Below the pieces are notes generated by a model. The model did no database searches. It worked only from the letters and a program-made list of their open reading frames with translations, and had not been told where the DNA came from. This document shows, piece by piece, positions 20,240-28,310 of a stretch of DNA of 64,000 nt (its first letter is position 1; each line of letters begins with the position of its first letter). The stretch is from NCBI GenBank assembly GCA_029978335.1, contig JAPOJQ010000004.1:1-64000 (forward strand). The letters run 5' to 3'. Position numbers and translations under genes: made by a program. This stretch comes from Actinomycetota bacterium (GTDB lineage: Bacteria > Actinomycetota > Acidimicrobiia > Acidimicrobiales > Ilumatobacteraceae).

Positions 20240-20245
20240 TAGGGT
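20240..20245 (+). promoter_or_regulatory. Possible -10 box of ccr
   Basis: TAGGGT lies between the two operators. Transcription would start near 20252 inside O2, with O1 over the -35 region. No good -35 hexamer is visible. Confidence 0.3.
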
Positions 20246-20247
20246 GA

Positions 20248-20265
20248 GGCTAATACCCATTAGCC
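20248..20265. promoter_or_regulatory. Operator O2 of the tetR-ccr region
   Basis: GGCTAAT-ACCC-ATTAGCC, a perfect 7-bp inverted repeat with a 4-nt spacer. With O1 the consensus is GGCTAAY-ACYC-RTTAGCC. It lies 23 nt upstream of the chosen ccr start. Confidence 0.8.
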
Positions 20266-20288
20266 AATCGGACGACGGAGCCGTGCCC

Positions 20289-21629
20289 ATGCAACACATT
20301 CTCGACGCCATCCAAGCCGGCGCCTCAGGTGATGAGATCGCCGCTCTCCCGATTCCCGAGTCGTACCGAGCCGCATTCGTGCGCCGTGATGAGACCGCCA
20401 TGTTCGAAGGCGTGGCCTCAGCTGACAAAGACCCACGCAAGTCGCTCCACATTGATGAGGTCGCCACACCCGAACTCGCTCCTGACGAGGTCTACCTCGC
20501 AGTGATGGCATCGTCGATCAATTTCAACACGGTGTGGACGTCGATCTTCGAACCGCTGCCCACCTTCGGATTTCTCGACCGTCTCGCGCGCGAATCCGAA
20601 TGGTCAGCACGCCACGGACGCGACGAGCACATCATCGGCTCTGACGCCTCCGGCGTCGTGTTGCGCGTCGGGTCCGCCGTGCGTAACTGGAAGCCAGGCG
20701 ATCGCGTCACGGTGCACTGCAACCACGTCGACGACCAAGACCCGACCGCGCACGACGATTCGATGCTTGCTGCAAACCAGCGCATCTGGGGATTTGAGAC
20801 GAACTTCGGCGGACTCGCCGATCTGGCGGTGGTCAAGGCAAACCAGCTCATGCCCAAGCCAACGCACCTCACATGGGAAGAGTCCGCGGTCAACGCACTG
20901 TGCAACTCGACCAGTTACCGCATGCTCGTCTCCGACAACGGCGCCCGCATGAAACAAGGTGACTCGGTGCTGATCTGGGGAGCGACCGGCGGCATCGGTG
21001 GCTACGCCGTGCAGTACGTGCTCAACGGCGGCGGCACCCCAGTTGGCGTGGTGTCATCACCAGAGCGGGCAGCACTGCTCAACGAGATGGGCTGTGAGGC
21101 GGTCATCGACCGTCGCGCCGAGGGCTACAACTTCTGGAGCGACGAACACACCCAGGACGAGTCGGAATGGCGACGCTTCGGCAAGCGCATCCGTGAACTC
21201 ATCGGGGAAGATCCCGACATCGTGTTCGAACATCCGGGCCGCTCGACGATGGGTGCATCGATTTTCGCCGTCAAACGTGGCGGCACCGTCGTCACCTGCG
21301 CGGCGACCTCGGGCTACATGGTCGAGTTCGACAACCGGCACTTCTGGATGAAGTTGAAGCGCCTCTTGTCCTCGCACTTTGCGAACTACTCCGAAGCCTG
21401 GGCAGCGAATCGACTCATCGATCAGGGTCGCATCCAACCGCTTCTCAGCCGAGTCCATCAACTCACCGACGTCGGCGAAGCGGCCCGCTCGGTGCACCGC
21501 AACGAAGTCGAAGGCAAGGTCGGCGTGCTGTGCCTCGCCCCCACCGAAGGCCTCGGGATCGACGATCCCGAAAAGCGAGCCCGAATCGGCGAGGACCGAA
21601 TCACGATGTTCCGTCGCCTCGGCGCCTGA
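20289..21629 (+). CDS. ccr: Crotonyl-CoA carboxylase/reductase
   Basis: 446 residues from ATG 20289 (GGAG 9 nt upstream; GTG 20283 possible). It is an MDR-type enoyl reductase that uses NADPH to convert crotonyl-CoA and CO2 to (2S)-ethylmalonyl-CoA. The residues known to bind CO2 in carboxylating members are present: Asn80 (SSINFNTVW), Phe169-Glu170 (WGFETNFGG) and His363 (SSHFANY). This separates it from simple crotonyl-CoA reductases. The NADPH fold has IWGATGGIGGYAVQY. Regulation by the divergent TetR protein through O1 and O2 is likely. An upstream in-frame start at 20244 is rejected because it precedes operator O2. Confidence 0.95.
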   Translation: MQHILDAIQAGASGDEIAALPIPESYRAAFVRRDETAMFEGVASADKDPRKSLHIDEVATPELAPDEVYLAVMASSINFNTVWTSIFEPLPTFGFLDRLARESEWSARHGRDEHIIGSDASGVVLRVGSAVRNWKPGDRVTVHCNHVDDQDPTAHDDSMLAANQRIWGFETNFGGLADLAVVKANQLMPKPTHLTWEESAVNALCNSTSYRMLVSDNGARMKQGDSVLIWGATGGIGGYAVQYVLNGGGTPVGVVSSPERAALLNEMGCEAVIDRRAEGYNFWSDEHTQDESEWRRFGKRIRELIGEDPDIVFEHPGRSTMGASIFAVKRGGTVVTCAATSGYMVEFDNRHFWMKLKRLLSSHFANYSEAWAANRLIDQGRIQPLLSRVHQLTDVGEAARSVHRNEVEGKVGVLCLAPTEGLGIDDPEKRARIGEDRITMFRRLGA

Positions 21630-21650: not shown

Positions 21651-22055
21651 ATGATCCTCACCGAGATCGACCACGTCGCCATCGCCGTCCGAGACCTCGA
21701 CGCTGCCATCGACTACTACCACCGTGCATTCGGTGCAACCGTCGATCACCGCGAGGTCGTCGAATCCGACGGAGTTGAAGAAGCGCTGCTCAAGGTGGCG
21801 CAGAGTTACGTCCAGTTGCTCACGCCGACGCGCGATGACTCCCCCGTGGCGAAGGCGATCGAGAAGCGTGGCGAAGGCCTTCATCACATTGGTTACCGCG
21901 TCGACGATTGCGGCGTTGCCCTCGCCGCGATGATCGCAGCCGGCGCCACACCCATCGATGCCGCCCCTCGCCCTGGCAGCCGTGGCACGACCGTGGCGTT
22001 TGTGCATCCCAAGGGCAGTTTCGGCACCCTGATCGAACTCGTCCAAGAGAACTGA
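21651..22055 (+). CDS. epi: Methylmalonyl-CoA/ethylmalonyl-CoA epimerase
   Basis: 134 residues with a full VOC fold. Metal ligands match the family: His8 (EIDHVAIAVRD), a His in GEGLHHIGYRVDD, a Gln in SYVQLL and Glu131 (GTLIELVQEN). It interconverts the 2R and 2S forms of methylmalonyl-CoA and, in the ethylmalonyl-CoA pathway, ethylmalonyl-CoA, handing the Ccr product to Ecm. It follows ccr by 21 nt on the same strand and may be both cotranscribed with it and served by its own weak promoter. Confidence 0.92.
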   Translation: MILTEIDHVAIAVRDLDAAIDYYHRAFGATVDHREVVESDGVEEALLKVAQSYVQLLTPTRDDSPVAKAIEKRGEGLHHIGYRVDDCGVALAAMIAAGATPIDAAPRPGSRGTTVAFVHPKGSFGTLIELVQEN

Positions 22056-22059
22056 TCCA

Positions 22060-23895
22060 ATGACCCGGCCCCCCGCAGCGGTGCTGTGGGATATGGACGG
22101 CACGCTCGTCGATACCGAGCCGTATTGGATCGAGGCCGAATTCAAGATCGTCGAATCGTTTGGCGGTGTGTGGTCTGACGAACACGCCCACTACCTCGTT
22201 GGTTCCGACCTCATCGACGCCGCCAACTACATGATCGCCAATTCGCCGATCACCCTCTCGCCGACGGAGGTTGTCGAGCGTCTACTCGATCATGTGGTCG
22301 CATCGATTCGACGAGAAATCCCATGGCGACCCGGTGCCCGAGAGTTGCTTGCCGAACTCAACGGCGCCGGCGTCCCATGTGCGTTGGTGACGATGTCATG
22401 GCGACGTTTTGCCGACGCCGTCATCGACGCGCTCCCGCCTGGATCGTTTGCCGAGATCATCTGCGGCGACGATGTCACGCACGGCAAACCGCACCCTGAG
22501 CCCTACCTCACCGCAGCAACGCGACTCGGTGTTGACCCAACGTCATGCGTGGCGATTGAGGATTCACCAACCGGCTTTGCCTCCGCTGTGGCGGCCGGGT
22601 GCAAGGTTGTCGGGGTACCCAACGTCCGTTCCCTCGAGCCGGCTGACGGTGCCATCATCCTTCCCAGCCTCGACGGGGTCGATCTTCGAATGCTGTCGGA
22701 TCGACGCACGTGGTCACCGCGCACGCATCGCCGGTCACTCAGCATTCTCGGCGGACTCGCCGTGCTCGCCCTTGGAGCTGGCTCGTGGGCGGTACTCGCA
22801 GGTGGCGATGAACCCGTGCCGCCGGTGATTCCACCCGGCGCCGTCGCCATCGATACCTGGGTGCCGTACTGGACGCTGGAACGTCGCCTTGTCGAGCCCG
22901 ACGCGACCGTCGACCGGTTGATGGGGTTGCGCGAGGTCTCACCGTTTTGGTGGTCGGCCCGCAGCGCAACCGACATCGCACCCGACACCTACCTCAACAA
23001 CGACCAAGCTGATGCCTTCATGGCACTCGTCGATCGCACCGGAGCGGCAGTAGTGCCGGCGGTGCTCGATGTGATGCCAGCCGGACAGATGGCATCGGTA
23101 CTGCGCGATCCCACAACGCGCTCCCAACACGTGGACACACTCGTGCGCTTTGTGATCGACGGGGGCTACGACGGTGTCGACATCGACTACGAACAGTTCG
23201 CCTTTGCTGACGATCCGGCAACCTGGGTCGAGACGAAGCCCGCGTGGGTCGCGTTCATCACCGAACTCGCCGACGCCCTGCACCGCGAAGGTCGCACGCT
23301 CAGCGTCAGCGTTCCACCGGTCTACGTCTTCGCCGACACCGGCGACCTCGGGTACTGGGTCTATGACCATGGCACGATCGCTGGGATCGTGGACCGACTC
23401 CGAATTATGGCGTACGACTATTCGACGGGTTCTGCGGGCCCGATCGCACCCATTGAGTGGGTCGCCGATGTCATCGATGGACTACGAGCCGTCGTTGCGC
23501 CCGAGCACCTCGACCGTGTGGTGCTCGGCGTGCCGGCATACGGCTACAACTGGCCGATTGCAACAACGGGTACCTGCCCCGTCGATGCTCCGGGGCGCAC
23601 CAGCGTGACCGCTGCGACCATTGCCGATCTCGCTGCCCGCCGCGGGGCTGAGCCGGTGCTCGATCCCATCACACTCGAATGGTCAGCGACCTATGACCTC
23701 GAGCACGACGATGGCACCACGAGTTGTGTGCAGACCCGCCAAGTGCATTGGGTCGGTTCGGAAGGTGTCGCTGAACGTGTCCAGATGGCCCGACGCGCCG
23801 GATTTGGCGGCGTGGGACTCTGGGCGTTTGGTTACGAAGATGACGCCACCTGGACCGCCCTGACCGCCGCCGCCACATCGGAGATCACCCCGTGA
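22060..23895 (+). CDS. HAD phosphatase - transmembrane - GH18 fusion protein
   Basis: 611 residues in one open frame. Residues 1-205 are a beta-phosphoglucomutase-like HAD hydrolase with LWDMDGTLVDTEP, the lysine segment GKPHPEPYLTAA and IEDSPTGFASA. A basic stretch and one hydrophobic segment follow (SLSILGGLAVLALGAGSW, about 226-250). Residues 265-605 form a GH18-like barrel of the YaaH/SleL kind with the catalytic motif DGVDIDYE (Glu378). The topology would leave the HAD domain in the cytoplasm and the glycosidase outside. An internal ATG at 22690 (codon 211) could give a separate membrane-anchored GH18 protein. No frameshift or stop separates the domains. Confidence 0.8.
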   Translation: MTRPPAAVLWDMDGTLVDTEPYWIEAEFKIVESFGGVWSDEHAHYLVGSDLIDAANYMIANSPITLSPTEVVERLLDHVVASIRREIPWRPGARELLAELNGAGVPCALVTMSWRRFADAVIDALPPGSFAEIICGDDVTHGKPHPEPYLTAATRLGVDPTSCVAIEDSPTGFASAVAAGCKVVGVPNVRSLEPADGAIILPSLDGVDLRMLSDRRTWSPRTHRRSLSILGGLAVLALGAGSWAVLAGGDEPVPPVIPPGAVAIDTWVPYWTLERRLVEPDATVDRLMGLREVSPFWWSARSATDIAPDTYLNNDQADAFMALVDRTGAAVVPAVLDVMPAGQMASVLRDPTTRSQHVDTLVRFVIDGGYDGVDIDYEQFAFADDPATWVETKPAWVAFITELADALHREGRTLSVSVPPVYVFADTGDLGYWVYDHGTIAGIVDRLRIMAYDYSTGSAGPIAPIEWVADVIDGLRAVVAPEHLDRVVLGVPAYGYNWPIATTGTCPVDAPGRTSVTAATIADLAARRGAEPVLDPITLEWSATYDLEHDDGTTSCVQTRQVHWVGSEGVAERVQMARRAGFGGVGLWAFGYEDDATWTALTAAATSEITP

Positions 23896-25061
23896 CCGAC
23901 ATCGATACCGACCGCTTGCGCTCCATCGGCGAACAACTCTGCACCGACGTCTTCGTCGATGCGGTGGTGCGCGGTGCGCGTGCTGGCGCCACTCCAACGT
24001 ACGAACGCATCCGCATCCGCCCTGTCGACATCGGCGGTAGCCGTCACCTCCAGTTCGAACGCTTTGATGGCCGCCAGACCGCCGTTGAGAACCTCGTTGG
24101 CGATGCGGCCGTCGACTCGTTCATCAACGCCTTCCGAGATGGAATGCGCACCGCCCTCGTGCGAACGACCTCGGCCGACCTCCAGGTGACGATCGCGAAA
24201 CGCGGCACCGTGCAATCGGTCAAGCACGCCCCCACCGCGCAGACCGTCGTCACCGAGCACGATCGAAGTCGACACCATCTGATTTCTGAAGATGCACCAT
24301 TCCTCATCGCTGTGGGCATCTCAACCGCCGACGGTCGCGTGAAACCAACGGCTCGATCGAAATTCCGTCAAGTGCAGCGTTTCGTCGAAATTCTCGACGC
24401 AACGATCACTGATAGCGAATCGACATCAACGCTCAGGATTGTCGATCTCGGATGTGGCTCAGGGGTCCTGACCCTCGCCGCGCATCATCATCTTCGCGAA
24501 CGCGGTATCGATGTCGACACGACCGGCGTTGACCTCAAAGTCGACTTGATGGATCGCCTCAACCACACCGTTGCGGACCTCGGATGGGAGCAGATCCGGT
24601 TCGTTACGGGATCGATCGCCGACTGGCACCCAGTCGCTCGGCACGAGCCCGATCTCGTGATTGCCCTTCATGCCTGCGACACCGCCACCGATGACGCCTT
24701 AGCCGCAGCGATCGGTTGGTCGTCACGTCACATCTTGGTCGCGCCGTGTTGCCAGCATGATCTCCAAGATCAACTCGAGCAACAGAGTCCTCCGCCTGGG
24801 TTTGAGTCACTCGTACGTCATGGCATCGTGCGCGAGCGGCTTGGCGACCTCCTGACCGACACCGTCCGGGCCGACATCTGCGCAGCCCTTGGGTGGCGGA
24901 CCGACGTGATTGAGTTCGTCGATGGCGAACACACCGCGAAGAATCTGATGATTCGAGCGGTCCACACCGGCCAGCGGGATCCCGATGCTCAAGGCCGCGT
25001 CGAGGACCTCGTCGCACGCTGGGGCGTCAACCCTGCGCTCAGGCGTCGGCTGGCGGATTGA
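23892..25061 (+). CDS. Class I SAM-dependent methyltransferase (PF13679-like)
   Basis: 389 residues from a GTG whose GTGA overlaps the previous stop. Motif I is IVDLGCGSGVLTLAAHHH, followed by TTGVDLKVDLMDRLN. The catalytic region VIALHACDTATDDALA and ILVAPCCQHDLQ resembles the Methyltransf_32 family, whose eukaryotic members include tRNA and RNA-linked methylases. The N-terminal 140 residues have no recognisable domain. Substrate unknown; RNA is one possibility. Its 3' end overlaps the convergent thioredoxin-like gene by 23 nt. Confidence 0.7.
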   Translation: MTDIDTDRLRSIGEQLCTDVFVDAVVRGARAGATPTYERIRIRPVDIGGSRHLQFERFDGRQTAVENLVGDAAVDSFINAFRDGMRTALVRTTSADLQVTIAKRGTVQSVKHAPTAQTVVTEHDRSRHHLISEDAPFLIAVGISTADGRVKPTARSKFRQVQRFVEILDATITDSESTSTLRIVDLGCGSGVLTLAAHHHLRERGIDVDTTGVDLKVDLMDRLNHTVADLGWEQIRFVTGSIADWHPVARHEPDLVIALHACDTATDDALAAAIGWSSRHILVAPCCQHDLQDQLEQQSPPPGFESLVRHGIVRERLGDLLTDTVRADICAALGWRTDVIEFVDGEHTAKNLMIRAVHTGQRDPDAQGRVEDLVARWGVNPALRRRLAD

Positions 25062-25731
25062 TCAGATCGGTCACGAGCGCCACGAGCGCGTCGGCGGGCG
25101 ACTCACCACTCCATCGCCCGCGAACCGCACCCGTTGCGTCGACGAGCACCATGAATGGATAGCCAGTCACCCCGAGTGCGTCACCAGCGATGTAGACACC
25201 GCGTGTCTCGTCGATGCCGTCGGCGAGCACGGGGTAGGTCCAATCCTTTTCGACCAGCCACCGAGCCGGTGGGAAGTTCGGGCGGTCCGGCGCGATGGCA
25301 CTTGAGATACCGACGACCTCAAGCCCTGCGGGCCAGCGGTCGGCATCGCGAATCGCGTTGATCTCAGGGATCTCGTTGTTGCAGTGCGGGCACCAATGCG
25401 CCAAGACGACGAGCAGCATCGGGTTGGCGCGATCGGGGCCAACCGTGATGGGCGTGCCGTCGTAGTCCTCACCGATGAGGGTGGGTATCGGTCGGCCAAT
25501 CGCAGGATCGGTATGCGAATCGACGAACGCTGGTAGGGCGTCGCCATCAACGACGACAGAACGAACCTGATCGCCGTAGCCGGCAAGGGTGGTGGTCGTG
25601 ATCGGCGATGAGGTCGTCGACGGCGAGGTCGTCGACGGCGAGGTCGTCGTCGTGTCAAAAACGATCACGAGGTCATTGTTCGCGCATGACGTGAACGCAA
25701 CAGCAGCGATGACAACGAGCAACCGACGCAA
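25039..25731 (-). CDS. TlpA/ResA-like thioredoxin lipoprotein
   Basis: 230 residues from a TTG that directly follows the dsbB stop (TAATTG). A signal peptide ends in a lipobox around FTSCANN, followed by a Ser/Thr-rich linker. The thioredoxin domain has LAHWCPHCNNEIPEI and a cis-Pro in VTGYPFMVLVDATG. The CPHC active site is that of DsbA-type oxidants, although the overall form is TlpA-like. Coupled to dsbB, it probably receives electrons from exported cysteines and passes them to DsbB, making disulfides outside the membrane. Confidence 0.88.
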   Translation of the reverse strand: MRRLLVVIAAVAFTSCANNDLVIVFDTTTTSPSTTSPSTTSSPITTTTLAGYGDQVRSVVVDGDALPAFVDSHTDPAIGRPIPTLIGEDYDGTPITVGPDRANPMLLVVLAHWCPHCNNEIPEINAIRDADRWPAGLEVVGISSAIAPDRPNFPPARWLVEKDWTYPVLADGIDETRGVYIAGDALGVTGYPFMVLVDATGAVRGRWSGESPADALVALVTDLINPPADA

Positions 25732-26286
25732 TTAGTCATCCTCGCCCGGAATCAGGCTCACCACGACGACGGCCACGAAGCCAACGAGCGCCATGAAGGC
25801 CAGCGTGACAAATCCATAGGAGCGGAACCAGATGTCAGAACACGCGGGACCCGACGCCGAGCACGCCCCCGAGTCGAGGCCTGGACGCCACTCGATGAGG
25901 TAATGCCACGCCGAGACGCATGCGCCGACCGCCGCAATCGGCAGCGCATACCACCGGGCGCCCCGGTCCTTGCGAATGACGGCCACCAAACCAATCACGG
26001 CGAGTGGATACATCGCAATTCTCTGGAACCAGCACAAACGGCACGGGATGTAGTTCGCCACCTCGGAGAAATACAGCGATCCCGCGGTCGCCCCGCCCGC
26101 AATTGCCAGGATCACGGCCGCTCGCACCCGAGCGATTACCGCAAGCGTTGCCCGACGGCCCGTTGCCCACATGATGAGCACCGCCACCGTGGCAATCGCC
26201 ACCAGGATCGCCAGCGTTGCGGTGAACGTCTCCATCGCATCGGTGATTGCGTAGCCGTCGAGAGCGAGAATCGCCGAGCCTGCCAT
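25732..26286 (-). CDS. dsbB: Disulfide bond formation protein B
   Basis: 184 residues from ATG 26286, four membrane spans. Cysteine pairs are CRLC in YIPCRLCWFQRIAMYPLAV and the second-loop pair in SGACSASGPACSD. DsbB reoxidises an extracytoplasmic thioredoxin-like oxidase with quinone. It is followed without a gap by a CPHC thioredoxin lipoprotein, likely its partner. Actinobacteria more often use VKOR for this task, so a DsbB-type pair is worth noting. CAGACT lies 6 nt before the ATG. Confidence 0.9.
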   Translation of the reverse strand: MAGSAILALDGYAITDAMETFTATLAILVAIATVAVLIMWATGRRATLAVIARVRAAVILAIAGGATAGSLYFSEVANYIPCRLCWFQRIAMYPLAVIGLVAVIRKDRGARWYALPIAAVGACVSAWHYLIEWRPGLDSGACSASGPACSDIWFRSYGFVTLAFMALVGFVAVVVVSLIPGEDD

Positions 26287-26292
26287 GCCCCT

Positions 26293-26298
26293 AGTCTG
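26293..26298 (-). promoter_or_regulatory. -10 box of dsbB (leaderless)
   Basis: CAGACT on the minus strand, 6-nt spacer, ATG at 26286. Confidence 0.4.
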
Positions 26299-26308
26299 CC
26301 GGTGACGG

Positions 26309-26314
26309 TAGGGT
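26309..26314 (+). promoter_or_regulatory. -10 box of the DUF2510 gene (leaderless)
   Basis: TAGGGT, 6-nt spacer TCGCGC, ATG at 26321. Confidence 0.5.
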
Positions 26315-26320
26315 TCGCGC

Positions 26321-26725
26321 ATGCTCGAGTACACGTCGATCAGCGTCTCGTCGTACCAGGCGTCGACGCTCACCCCCTTGCTCGACTCGCATTCGGCCGA
26401 CGGATGGACGCTCGTTGCCATCGTGCCCGCCGGCACCGAGATCGTTGCCTACCTCTCCCGTCCGGCGGGCACCGCAGTGGTCGATGCACCCGCGGCCGAG
26501 ACCTCGTCGGGTTGGGCGTTGCAGCCAGAGCCGGCAACCCCATCATCACCAGCCACGGCGGCGCCGACGCCAGCTCCTGCACCGGCACCGGCTGCCGCTG
26601 CAGCGCCTGCTGGTTGGTATGCCGATCCATCCGGTCGGTTCGAGTTGCGCTATTGGGACGGTGGCCGTTGGACCGAGCACGTCTCGCGACGCGGCCAGCA
26701 GTTCACCGACCCGCCGGTCGCCTGA
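26321..26725 (+). CDS. DUF2510-domain protein
   Basis: 134 residues in three parts. Residues 1-50 are a compact segment with DGWTLVAIVPAGTEIVAYLSR, like the DUF4177 type. An Ala/Pro-rich linker follows, then the C-terminal DUF2510 module APAGWYADPSGRFELRYWDG and GRWTEHV. DUF2510 modules are common in actinobacterial membrane-associated proteins, but this one lacks a membrane segment. Function unknown. The next gene starts two bases after its stop, suggesting cotranscription with the metallo-beta-lactamase/Rieske gene. Confidence 0.75.
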   Translation: MLEYTSISVSSYQASTLTPLLDSHSADGWTLVAIVPAGTEIVAYLSRPAGTAVVDAPAAETSSGWALQPEPATPSSPATAAPTPAPAPAPAAAAAPAGWYADPSGRFELRYWDGGRWTEHVSRRGQQFTDPPVA

Positions 26726-26726
26726 C

Positions 26727-28310
26727 GTGCGCGCCACGTCGGTTGGTCATGCCGGCATCCTCGTCGAATGCGACGCGGGTTCGATCCTGTGCGATCCGTG
26801 GTTCGTACCAGCATTTCTTGGATCGTGGTTCGTCTTCCCGCGCAATGACCAGCTCGATGATGCGCTCATGGCGCGAATTGAGCAGGCCGACTACCTCTAC
26901 ATCTCGCACCTGCATGGTGATCATCACGACGCCGCATGGCTGAGGGAACATCTACGGCGCGACGTGCCGATCCTGTTGCCCGACTATCCAACGCAAGAGC
27001 AGGAACGCACCTTGCGTGCGCTCGGCTTCACCAACTTCATCCCCACCCGAGATGGCGTCGAGATGGCCCTGCGTCCGGGCCTATCGATTGCGATCCATGT
27101 GGAAACATCGATCACCGACGGTCCAGGAGGCGATTCAGCGATCGTCATTTCCGACGGTCGGCATCGTCTCGTGAATCAGAACGATTGCCGAACCACCGAC
27201 CTGTCGGCGCTCGCCGCTCACGGTCCCATCGATCTCCATTGGCTGCAGTATTCGGGGGCGATCTGGTACCCCATGGTGTACGAACTGCCCGCCGATGACA
27301 TGGCCCAGCTCTGTCGGGCAAAAACCGAGAGTCAGGGCGCTCGGGCAATGCGGTATGTCGAGGCGTTGGATGCTCGTGCGGTGGTGCCGAGCGCCGGTCC
27401 ACCGGCATTTCTCGACGATGGTCTCACACACCTCAACATGATCGATGGCGACGAGTTGAGCATCTTCCCTGACCAACAGTGGTTCCTCGAGCGGCTCGCT
27501 GCAGCGGGACATCAGGGACTGCTCGTTATTCCGGGAACGACGATCACACTTGACGACGACATCTCGGTGGCACATCCGATTCCCGATGCTGAGGTCGATG
27601 CCATCTTCACCGACAAGCGCGCCTACCTCGACCAGTACCGGGCTGATTGGGCTGGGTGGCTGCAAGATCTCCATGCCTCGTGGGCTCGGCCGCGAAGCGA
27701 CATCGTGGCAGCGATTGCCGCATGGTGGGAACCGTTGATGCGTCTGGCACCAACGGTGTGCAGGGCGATCGATGCGCCACTGGTCATACGCACCGACGAC
27801 GGGGATACCCAACTTGAGATCCTCATCGACTTTGCCAACGCACGAGTGCTCGATGCGTCATCGCCTGAGGCTGCTGATCGAGTCGCCGGATTTCGTTTCA
27901 CCATCGCCCGAGATCTGCTGGAAACCGTGGTCGCCGATGCGGCAGTCGACTGGTCGAACTCGTTGTTGTTGTCGTGTCGGTTCAGCGCGTGGCGAGCTGG
28001 CGCCTACAACGAGTACCTCTACAACTTCATCAAGTCGCTGTCGGTTGAGCGAATGGTGCGAACCGAAGCCGAAGCCGCCCGTAAACACCTCGAACGTCAT
28101 GGACCTGCCGTCGACGTGGACGAGGTGGAGGTCGGTGATTTCGTCGTTCAGCGACGGTGCCCCCACCGCAACGCTGACCTTTCCATCTTCGGCGAGATCG
28201 ATGGCAACGACCTGGTCTGCACCTTGCATGGCTGGCGATTCGATACTGCGACTGGACGCTGTCGCACCAGCGATGACCATCCGGTGCGGATTAGGCGCCG
28301 GGAAACCTGA
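26727..28310 (+). CDS. Metallo-beta-lactamase-fold protein with C-terminal Rieske domain
   Basis: 527 residues from GTG 26727. The N-terminal half is an UlaG-like MBL fold: GHAGILVECDAGSILCDPWF, then the metal motif SHLHGDHHD (HxHxDH). The middle region is helical without a recognised domain. The C-terminus is a Rieske [2Fe-2S] domain with CPHRNADLSIF (Cys478, His480) and CTLHGWRFD. This layout recalls CMP-N-acetylneuraminate hydroxylases and related MBL-Rieske proteins that combine an oxygenase-like cluster with a hydrolase fold. The substrate is unknown. Its 3' end overlaps the end of hspR by 20 nt. Confidence 0.8.
   Translation: MRATSVGHAGILVECDAGSILCDPWFVPAFLGSWFVFPRNDQLDDALMARIEQADYLYISHLHGDHHDAAWLREHLRRDVPILLPDYPTQEQERTLRALGFTNFIPTRDGVEMALRPGLSIAIHVETSITDGPGGDSAIVISDGRHRLVNQNDCRTTDLSALAAHGPIDLHWLQYSGAIWYPMVYELPADDMAQLCRAKTESQGARAMRYVEALDARAVVPSAGPPAFLDDGLTHLNMIDGDELSIFPDQQWFLERLAAAGHQGLLVIPGTTITLDDDISVAHPIPDAEVDAIFTDKRAYLDQYRADWAGWLQDLHASWARPRSDIVAAIAAWWEPLMRLAPTVCRAIDAPLVIRTDDGDTQLEILIDFANARVLDASSPEAADRVAGFRFTIARDLLETVVADAAVDWSNSLLLSCRFSAWRAGAYNEYLYNFIKSLSVERMVRTEAEAARKHLERHGPAVDVDEVEVGDFVVQRRCPHRNADLSIFGEIDGNDLVCTLHGWRFDTATGRCRTSDDHPVRIRRRET

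Follow-up and report, generated by a model that had tools for sequence, protein, structure and literature searches.

The gene at positions 22060-23895 of the window (the whole 64,000-nucleotide stretch of DNA that we analysed) encodes an intact HAD-IA phosphatase, one predicted membrane helix and an intact GH18 glycosidase. It is a genuine, conserved fusion of the Ilumatobacteraceae, a family of water-dwelling Actinobacteria, and we think it probable that it yields one N-in chain with a cytosolic sugar-phosphate phosphatase and, outside, a GH18 enzyme acting on a GlcNAc-containing glycan, in which the covalent link is not essential. Both domain families are known, and, judged by open-access papers and the sampled genomes, the HAD-transmembrane (TM)-GH18 architecture is a new combination. 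It would place an active site on either side of the membrane in a single conserved protein of a poorly studied actinobacterial family.

Two intact enzyme domains and a predicted membrane helix in one frame

The layout of the gene and its immediate neighbours is given in Table 1. Residues 8-186 match Pfam HAD_2 (PF13419) at 106.5 bits against a cut-off of 23.8, and residues 346-592 match Glyco_hydro_18 (PF00704) at 69.5 bits against 29.6. An AlphaFold2 model (nine fused homologues; mean pLDDT 81.2) consists of the HAD domain, helix 226-246 in a low-confidence linker, and the GH18 barrel. The single frame, the two Pfam matches and the presence of the same fusion in independent assemblies bear out the in-frame HAD-TM-GH18 fusion that a sequence-only reading of this DNA had proposed. 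The catalytic residues of both enzymes are essentially invariant among relatives.

Table 1. Features of the fusion gene and its immediate neighbours (window coordinates).
Feature	Position	Strand	Basis or remark
Fusion gene, single 611-aa frame without interruption	22060-23895	+	ORF
HAD-IA phosphatase domain, residues about 1-215, C1-cap type	22060..22704	+	Pfam HAD_2/Hydrolase, conservation, AlphaFold2
Linker with one predicted TM helix (AlphaFold2 helix 226-246)	22705..22845	+	Sequence, AlphaFold2
GH18 catalytic domain, residues about 263-611 (or about 258-611)	22846..23892	+	Pfam, PDB comparisons, motif conservation
In-frame internal ATG	22690..22692	+	Sequence; not conserved, Shine-Dalgarno (SD) absent upstream
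ccr-like reductase (zinc-binding dehydrogenase), upstream	20244..21629	+	Co-directional HAD neighbour in many genera, fused or not
Methylmalonyl-CoA epimerase-like (glyoxalase) gene, upstream	21651..22055	+	4 bases before fusion gene
Methyltransf_32 protein, downstream	23892..25061	+	Begins at a GTG that shares bases with the stop codon of the fusion gene (GTGA)

The HAD motifs DMDGT, T111, K143 and ED(S)PTG are intact, and D11, D13, T111, K143, E167 and D168 are invariant in 52 of 52 relatives. Modelled alone with AlphaFold2, the domain reaches a pLDDT of 93.7, and structural comparison gives a near tie between CbbY (VIA Z 24.6), L. lactis beta-phosphoglucomutase (23.9) and YniC (1te2; 23.4). 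By sequence, the closest solved structure is YniC (PDB 1te2, E 5e-23). The description of this domain as beta-phosphoglucomutase-like, made in the earlier reading, holds for fold and superfamily, but the curated cut-offs for that enzyme are missed (TIGR01990, 70.5 against 189.4 bits; TIGR02009, 98.8 against 153.35) and the closest sequences are sugar and hexitol phosphatases. The equivalog cut-off for the HxpB hexitol phosphatase is not reached either (NF008087, 110 against 191 bits). The best reading of the sequence is a putative cytoplasmic sugar-phosphate phosphatase.

In the GH18 domain, the DGVDIDYE motif noticed at the outset is indeed intact, at residues 371-378 with E378 as proton donor, and is accompanied by YD-S and W588. 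The core D-x-D-Y-E is present in all 31 fused proteins, and the first motif position is D in 28 of them. Superposition of the model on chitinase 5jh8 (VIA Z 32.6, 309 residues, 3.1 A) identifies a (beta/alpha)8 barrel; the spore enzyme SleL gives a VIA Z of 30.1, and PDB comparisons relate the domain to 5jh8, YdhD (3cz8) and SleL. The Pfam scan found none of the N-terminal LysM domains that precede the barrel in the SleL/YaaH cortex-lytic enzymes; HAD and the TM helix stand there instead. Because GH18 chemistry requires a 2-acetamido sugar, our guess is that the outer substrate is probably a chitin-like or peptidoglycan glycan containing GlcNAc.

One hydrophobic 19-mer lies in the linker of every one of the 31 fused relatives (mean KD 1.65-3.15). 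The cytoplasmic flank has a net charge of 0 to +8 and is positive in 30 of the 31; in the window's copy, a basic RTHRR precedes the helix and acidic residues follow it. A signal-peptidase-like (AxA-like) motif comes after the helix in only seven members. A single TM segment, a positive inside flank and a cleavage motif that is not conserved mark a type II (N-in) protein by sequence prediction. We infer an N-in/C-out arrangement, with HAD cytoplasmic and GH18 outside; the earlier suggestion that the two enzymes sit on opposite membrane faces is supported by conservation, by a charge distribution of the positive-inside kind and by the predicted structure. The split Ilumatobacteraceae GH18s retain an N-terminal TM anchor, and distant GH18 relatives outside the family (L115-L117) begin with apparent ordinary signal peptides.

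Distribution, history and possible function

A search of 221 genomes of the whole family, together with a search of relatives, found the fusion in 31 sampled Ilumatobacteraceae genomes from 11 genera, two of them single-contig (G033, G145). Those fused proteins that matched as one piece do so over their full length at 48-73% identity, and an independent assembly (JAQCGT010000025.1) carries the same fusion at about 72-73% identity across residues 1-611. One of the 31 (G229, L058) has a TAG directly behind the TM helix and is counted as a broken fused gene; the codon may reflect a pseudogene, recoding or a sequence error. The prospect of homologues with the same domain order is thus realized in 31 genomes, with linkers that vary in length in frame, but the domains are not always fused: in 19 genomes HAD and GH18 are separate neighbouring or overlapping genes.

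The split pairs take several forms. Seven split genomes of the window's genus share the overlap ATGGACGACGTAG or a close variant, in which the GH18 ATG lies within the HAD 3' end in the other frame. In the split pairs of genera g16 and g17 (L022, L025, L047, L048), a candidate GH18 ATG is found ~94-127 nt within the HAD gene, in another frame; these GH18s share an MSS.. N-terminus, and the gene overlap is unusually long. In other split pairs, either a small gap or a stop codon in the same frame comes between HAD and GH18. The two are far apart in a few genomes, such as G027, and genera g22 and g50 keep HAD without GH18. Beyond the family, no HAD-GH18 fusion was seen among 298 sampled genomes from the order or 396 sampled from the phylum, and we found no paper on one in the open-access literature. 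Close HAD orthologues in the order are stand-alone and end just past the last HAD element; the GH18 relatives from beyond the family also stand alone.

In a carefully built concatenated tree of 47 rows, from which five rows with long branches were left out, the distribution of fused and non-fused states needs three changes, and a single change sufficed in 0% of bootstraps. The seven-genome split clade of g1 is sister to the fused G013 (100/100) within otherwise fused genera, and the genus of that clade contains another split pair, G001/G009. Both are most simply read as fissions. For the third change, in the g13/g16/g17 clade, either a fission or an original non-fused state would fit, as the quick HAD-only tree with outgroups was too weakly resolved to root the fusion. 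Because at least two splits are nested within fused lineages on this tree, the fusion is an old one; the existence of split pairs implies that the covalent link is dispensable. Relatives with separate genes had been named in advance as a sign of sequencing error or recent fusion. Such relatives do exist, but they include these nested fissions, and so indicate neither.

The window's genus is one of several in which a thiolase/ccr/mce cluster precedes the gene; in G033, G028, G025, G026 and G023 this neighbourhood is lost, yet HAD and GH18 are together. Downstream, the Methyltransf_32 neighbour is present in some genomes of the window's genus, and is likely co-transcribed with the fusion gene. 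Further along the window, the ORF at 26415-28310 has SCP2_Rv3818 and Rieske domain matches and, at a score under the Pfam cut-off, a match to the beta-lactamase fold, and looks like an Rv3818-like multidomain protein; at 25039-26436 (minus strand), a candidate TlpA/AhpC-like lipoprotein lies beside a DsbB homologue, likely an extracytoplasmic thiol-oxidation pair. In 7 of 7 other Actinomycetota sampled (L109-L114, L120), the HAD orthologue adjoins metH and/or PAC2. In the three of these seven in which mshC could be placed, its distance from the HAD orthologue is about 1-11 kb. This proximity prompted the idea of a role as the mycothiol MshA2 phosphatase, which we rejected: family members that lack a close HAD orthologue (G017, G018, G020) have mshC-like genes just as the others do, so co-occurrence gives it no support.

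We propose that two neighbouring genes on the same strand gave rise to the fusion. One of them, for GH18, would have encoded an extracellular glycosidase with an uncleaved, N-in anchor; because the N-terminus of this anchor would already have been cytoplasmic, the upstream HAD gene could join it without its product leaving its compartment, and each enzyme would stay in its proper place. In the one chain made, HAD would dephosphorylate sugar phosphates at the cytosolic face of the membrane, and the substrate of GH18, outside, would be a glycan containing N-acetylglucosamine, either peptidoglycan or chitin-like. The link would fix stoichiometry and tether the phosphatase. It is nevertheless not essential, having come apart at least twice, as a rule into genes that overlap or adjoin.

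Whether the two enzymes also serve one GlcNAc-sugar salvage route is a guess, plausible but weakly supported. In G030, a nagA-like gene scoring above the TIGR00221 cut-off lies directly downstream of the split HAD-GH18 pair (L119:6005-8477), which suggests a shared amino-sugar route. This adjacency is limited to G030, and we rejected a NagA link as a general explanation; a MurNAc-6-P pathway was rejected as well, murQ being absent from 22 of 22 genomes tested. Because of the absence of murQ, because none of eight tested genomes of the window's genus has a full-length nagA match, and because HAD persists without GH18 and adjoins metH/PAC2 elsewhere, we treat the shared pathway as a hypothesis. 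The same retention of HAD alone in g22 and g50, and beside metH/PAC2 in other lineages, argues that its own reaction is independent of GH18.

These observations also fit an account to which we give somewhat less than an even chance: that stop loss joined functionally unrelated operon neighbours in a topologically tolerated, near-neutral fusion without a shared pathway. It accepts the same protein anatomy and puts the preserved frame down solely to the loss of GH18's former start codon. In its favour are HAD genes without GH18, the stand-alone GH18 relatives, the wide separation in G027, the repeated fissions, the want of conserved nag genes and ccr and mce neighbours with no evident link. It is harder to reconcile with HAD and GH18 being fused or adjacent in 50 examined genomes, even where the ccr-mce neighbourhood is lost, and with genes that remain overlapping or adjacent after fission. 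On function, it is at least as good as the shared-pathway claim. We consider it unlikely that the protein is a two-sided enzyme in which release of a GlcNAc-type sugar by GH18 outside is physically tied to a phosphatase step on the cytoplasmic face, with either the imported sugar phosphate or a precursor of the cell wall as substrate; if true, this would be a one-chain glycan-turnover station not described before.

One polypeptide or two

Across 28 fused tips, linker length has changed on at least 19 occasions, every time by whole codons, and the split pairs show all three phases between HAD and GH18. With at least 19 in-frame changes against ~3 fissions, P is ~ 4e-7 under indifference to frame, on the assumption that 2/3 of indels break the frame. 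The constant frame means that ribosomes reach GH18 from the HAD start, but by itself is no sign that fusion is advantageous. In eight fused pairs, dN/dS is 0.03-0.13 for HAD, 0.09-0.20 for GH18 and 0.12-0.65 for the linker. HAD and GH18 are therefore under strong purifying selection, and the linker under weaker.

A single frame could still yield two polypeptides, if initiation within the linker or signal-peptidase cleavage past the TM helix freed GH18. The window's own copy has features suited to both, namely the ATG at 22690, from which the sequence-only reading supposed that the glycosidase alone might be made, and a TM helix that ends V-L-A/G. However, internal ATG/GTG/TTG codons vary between fused members and this ATG is not conserved; in three members (G012, G003, G228), the linker lacks any ATG/GTG/TTG before the TM helix; and, among fused members, an SD-like motif precedes candidate internal starts only in the broken G229. 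That the AxA-like motif is confined to 7 of 31 members speaks against cleavage, and independent initiation would not keep every linker indel in frame. We regard two products as improbable. Because internal starts are neither conserved nor accompanied by a Shine-Dalgarno sequence, a single polypeptide is much the more likely outcome.

Loss of a stop codon through assembly or sequencing error, which the stop and separate start at the junction in same-genus relatives might have suggested, is refuted by the comparative data and has a negligible chance of being correct, since the same fusion occurs in 31 genomes, single-contig ones included, and in the independent relative, and linker length varies in frame.

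Comparison with known systems

The recurrent switching between fused, overlapping and adjacent states makes the value of the covalent link comparable across close relatives. The fusion is also a functional clue for the widespread orphan HAD found beside metH/PAC2, in conserved synteny, in other Actinobacteria.

Fold, cap type and all four catalytic motifs are common to this HAD domain and to E. coli HxpB/YniC (1te2), CbbY and the MtlD phosphatase domain. Unlike them, it bears a C-terminal TM helix and GH18 domain, and it scores below the HxpB cut-off. The GH18 domain shares the DxxDxDxE motif and TIM barrel of the YdhD/SleL/5jh8 group, but is anchored through an N-terminal helix joined to HAD, without a LysM match. 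Acinetobacter MtlD (PDB 7ocn) likewise joins an N-terminal HAD-IA phosphatase to a second enzyme, mannitol-1-P dehydrogenase, in one chain; it is deposited as a bifunctional, one-pathway enzyme, whereas in the present fusion a predicted TM helix separates the second enzyme from the first and a shared pathway is hypothetical. A HAD is also paired with a glycoside-active enzyme where GH65 phosphorylase and beta-phosphoglucomutase are adjacent or fused. The Ilumatobacteraceae fusion differs from that pairing in its GH family and in its TM helix, which is absent there.
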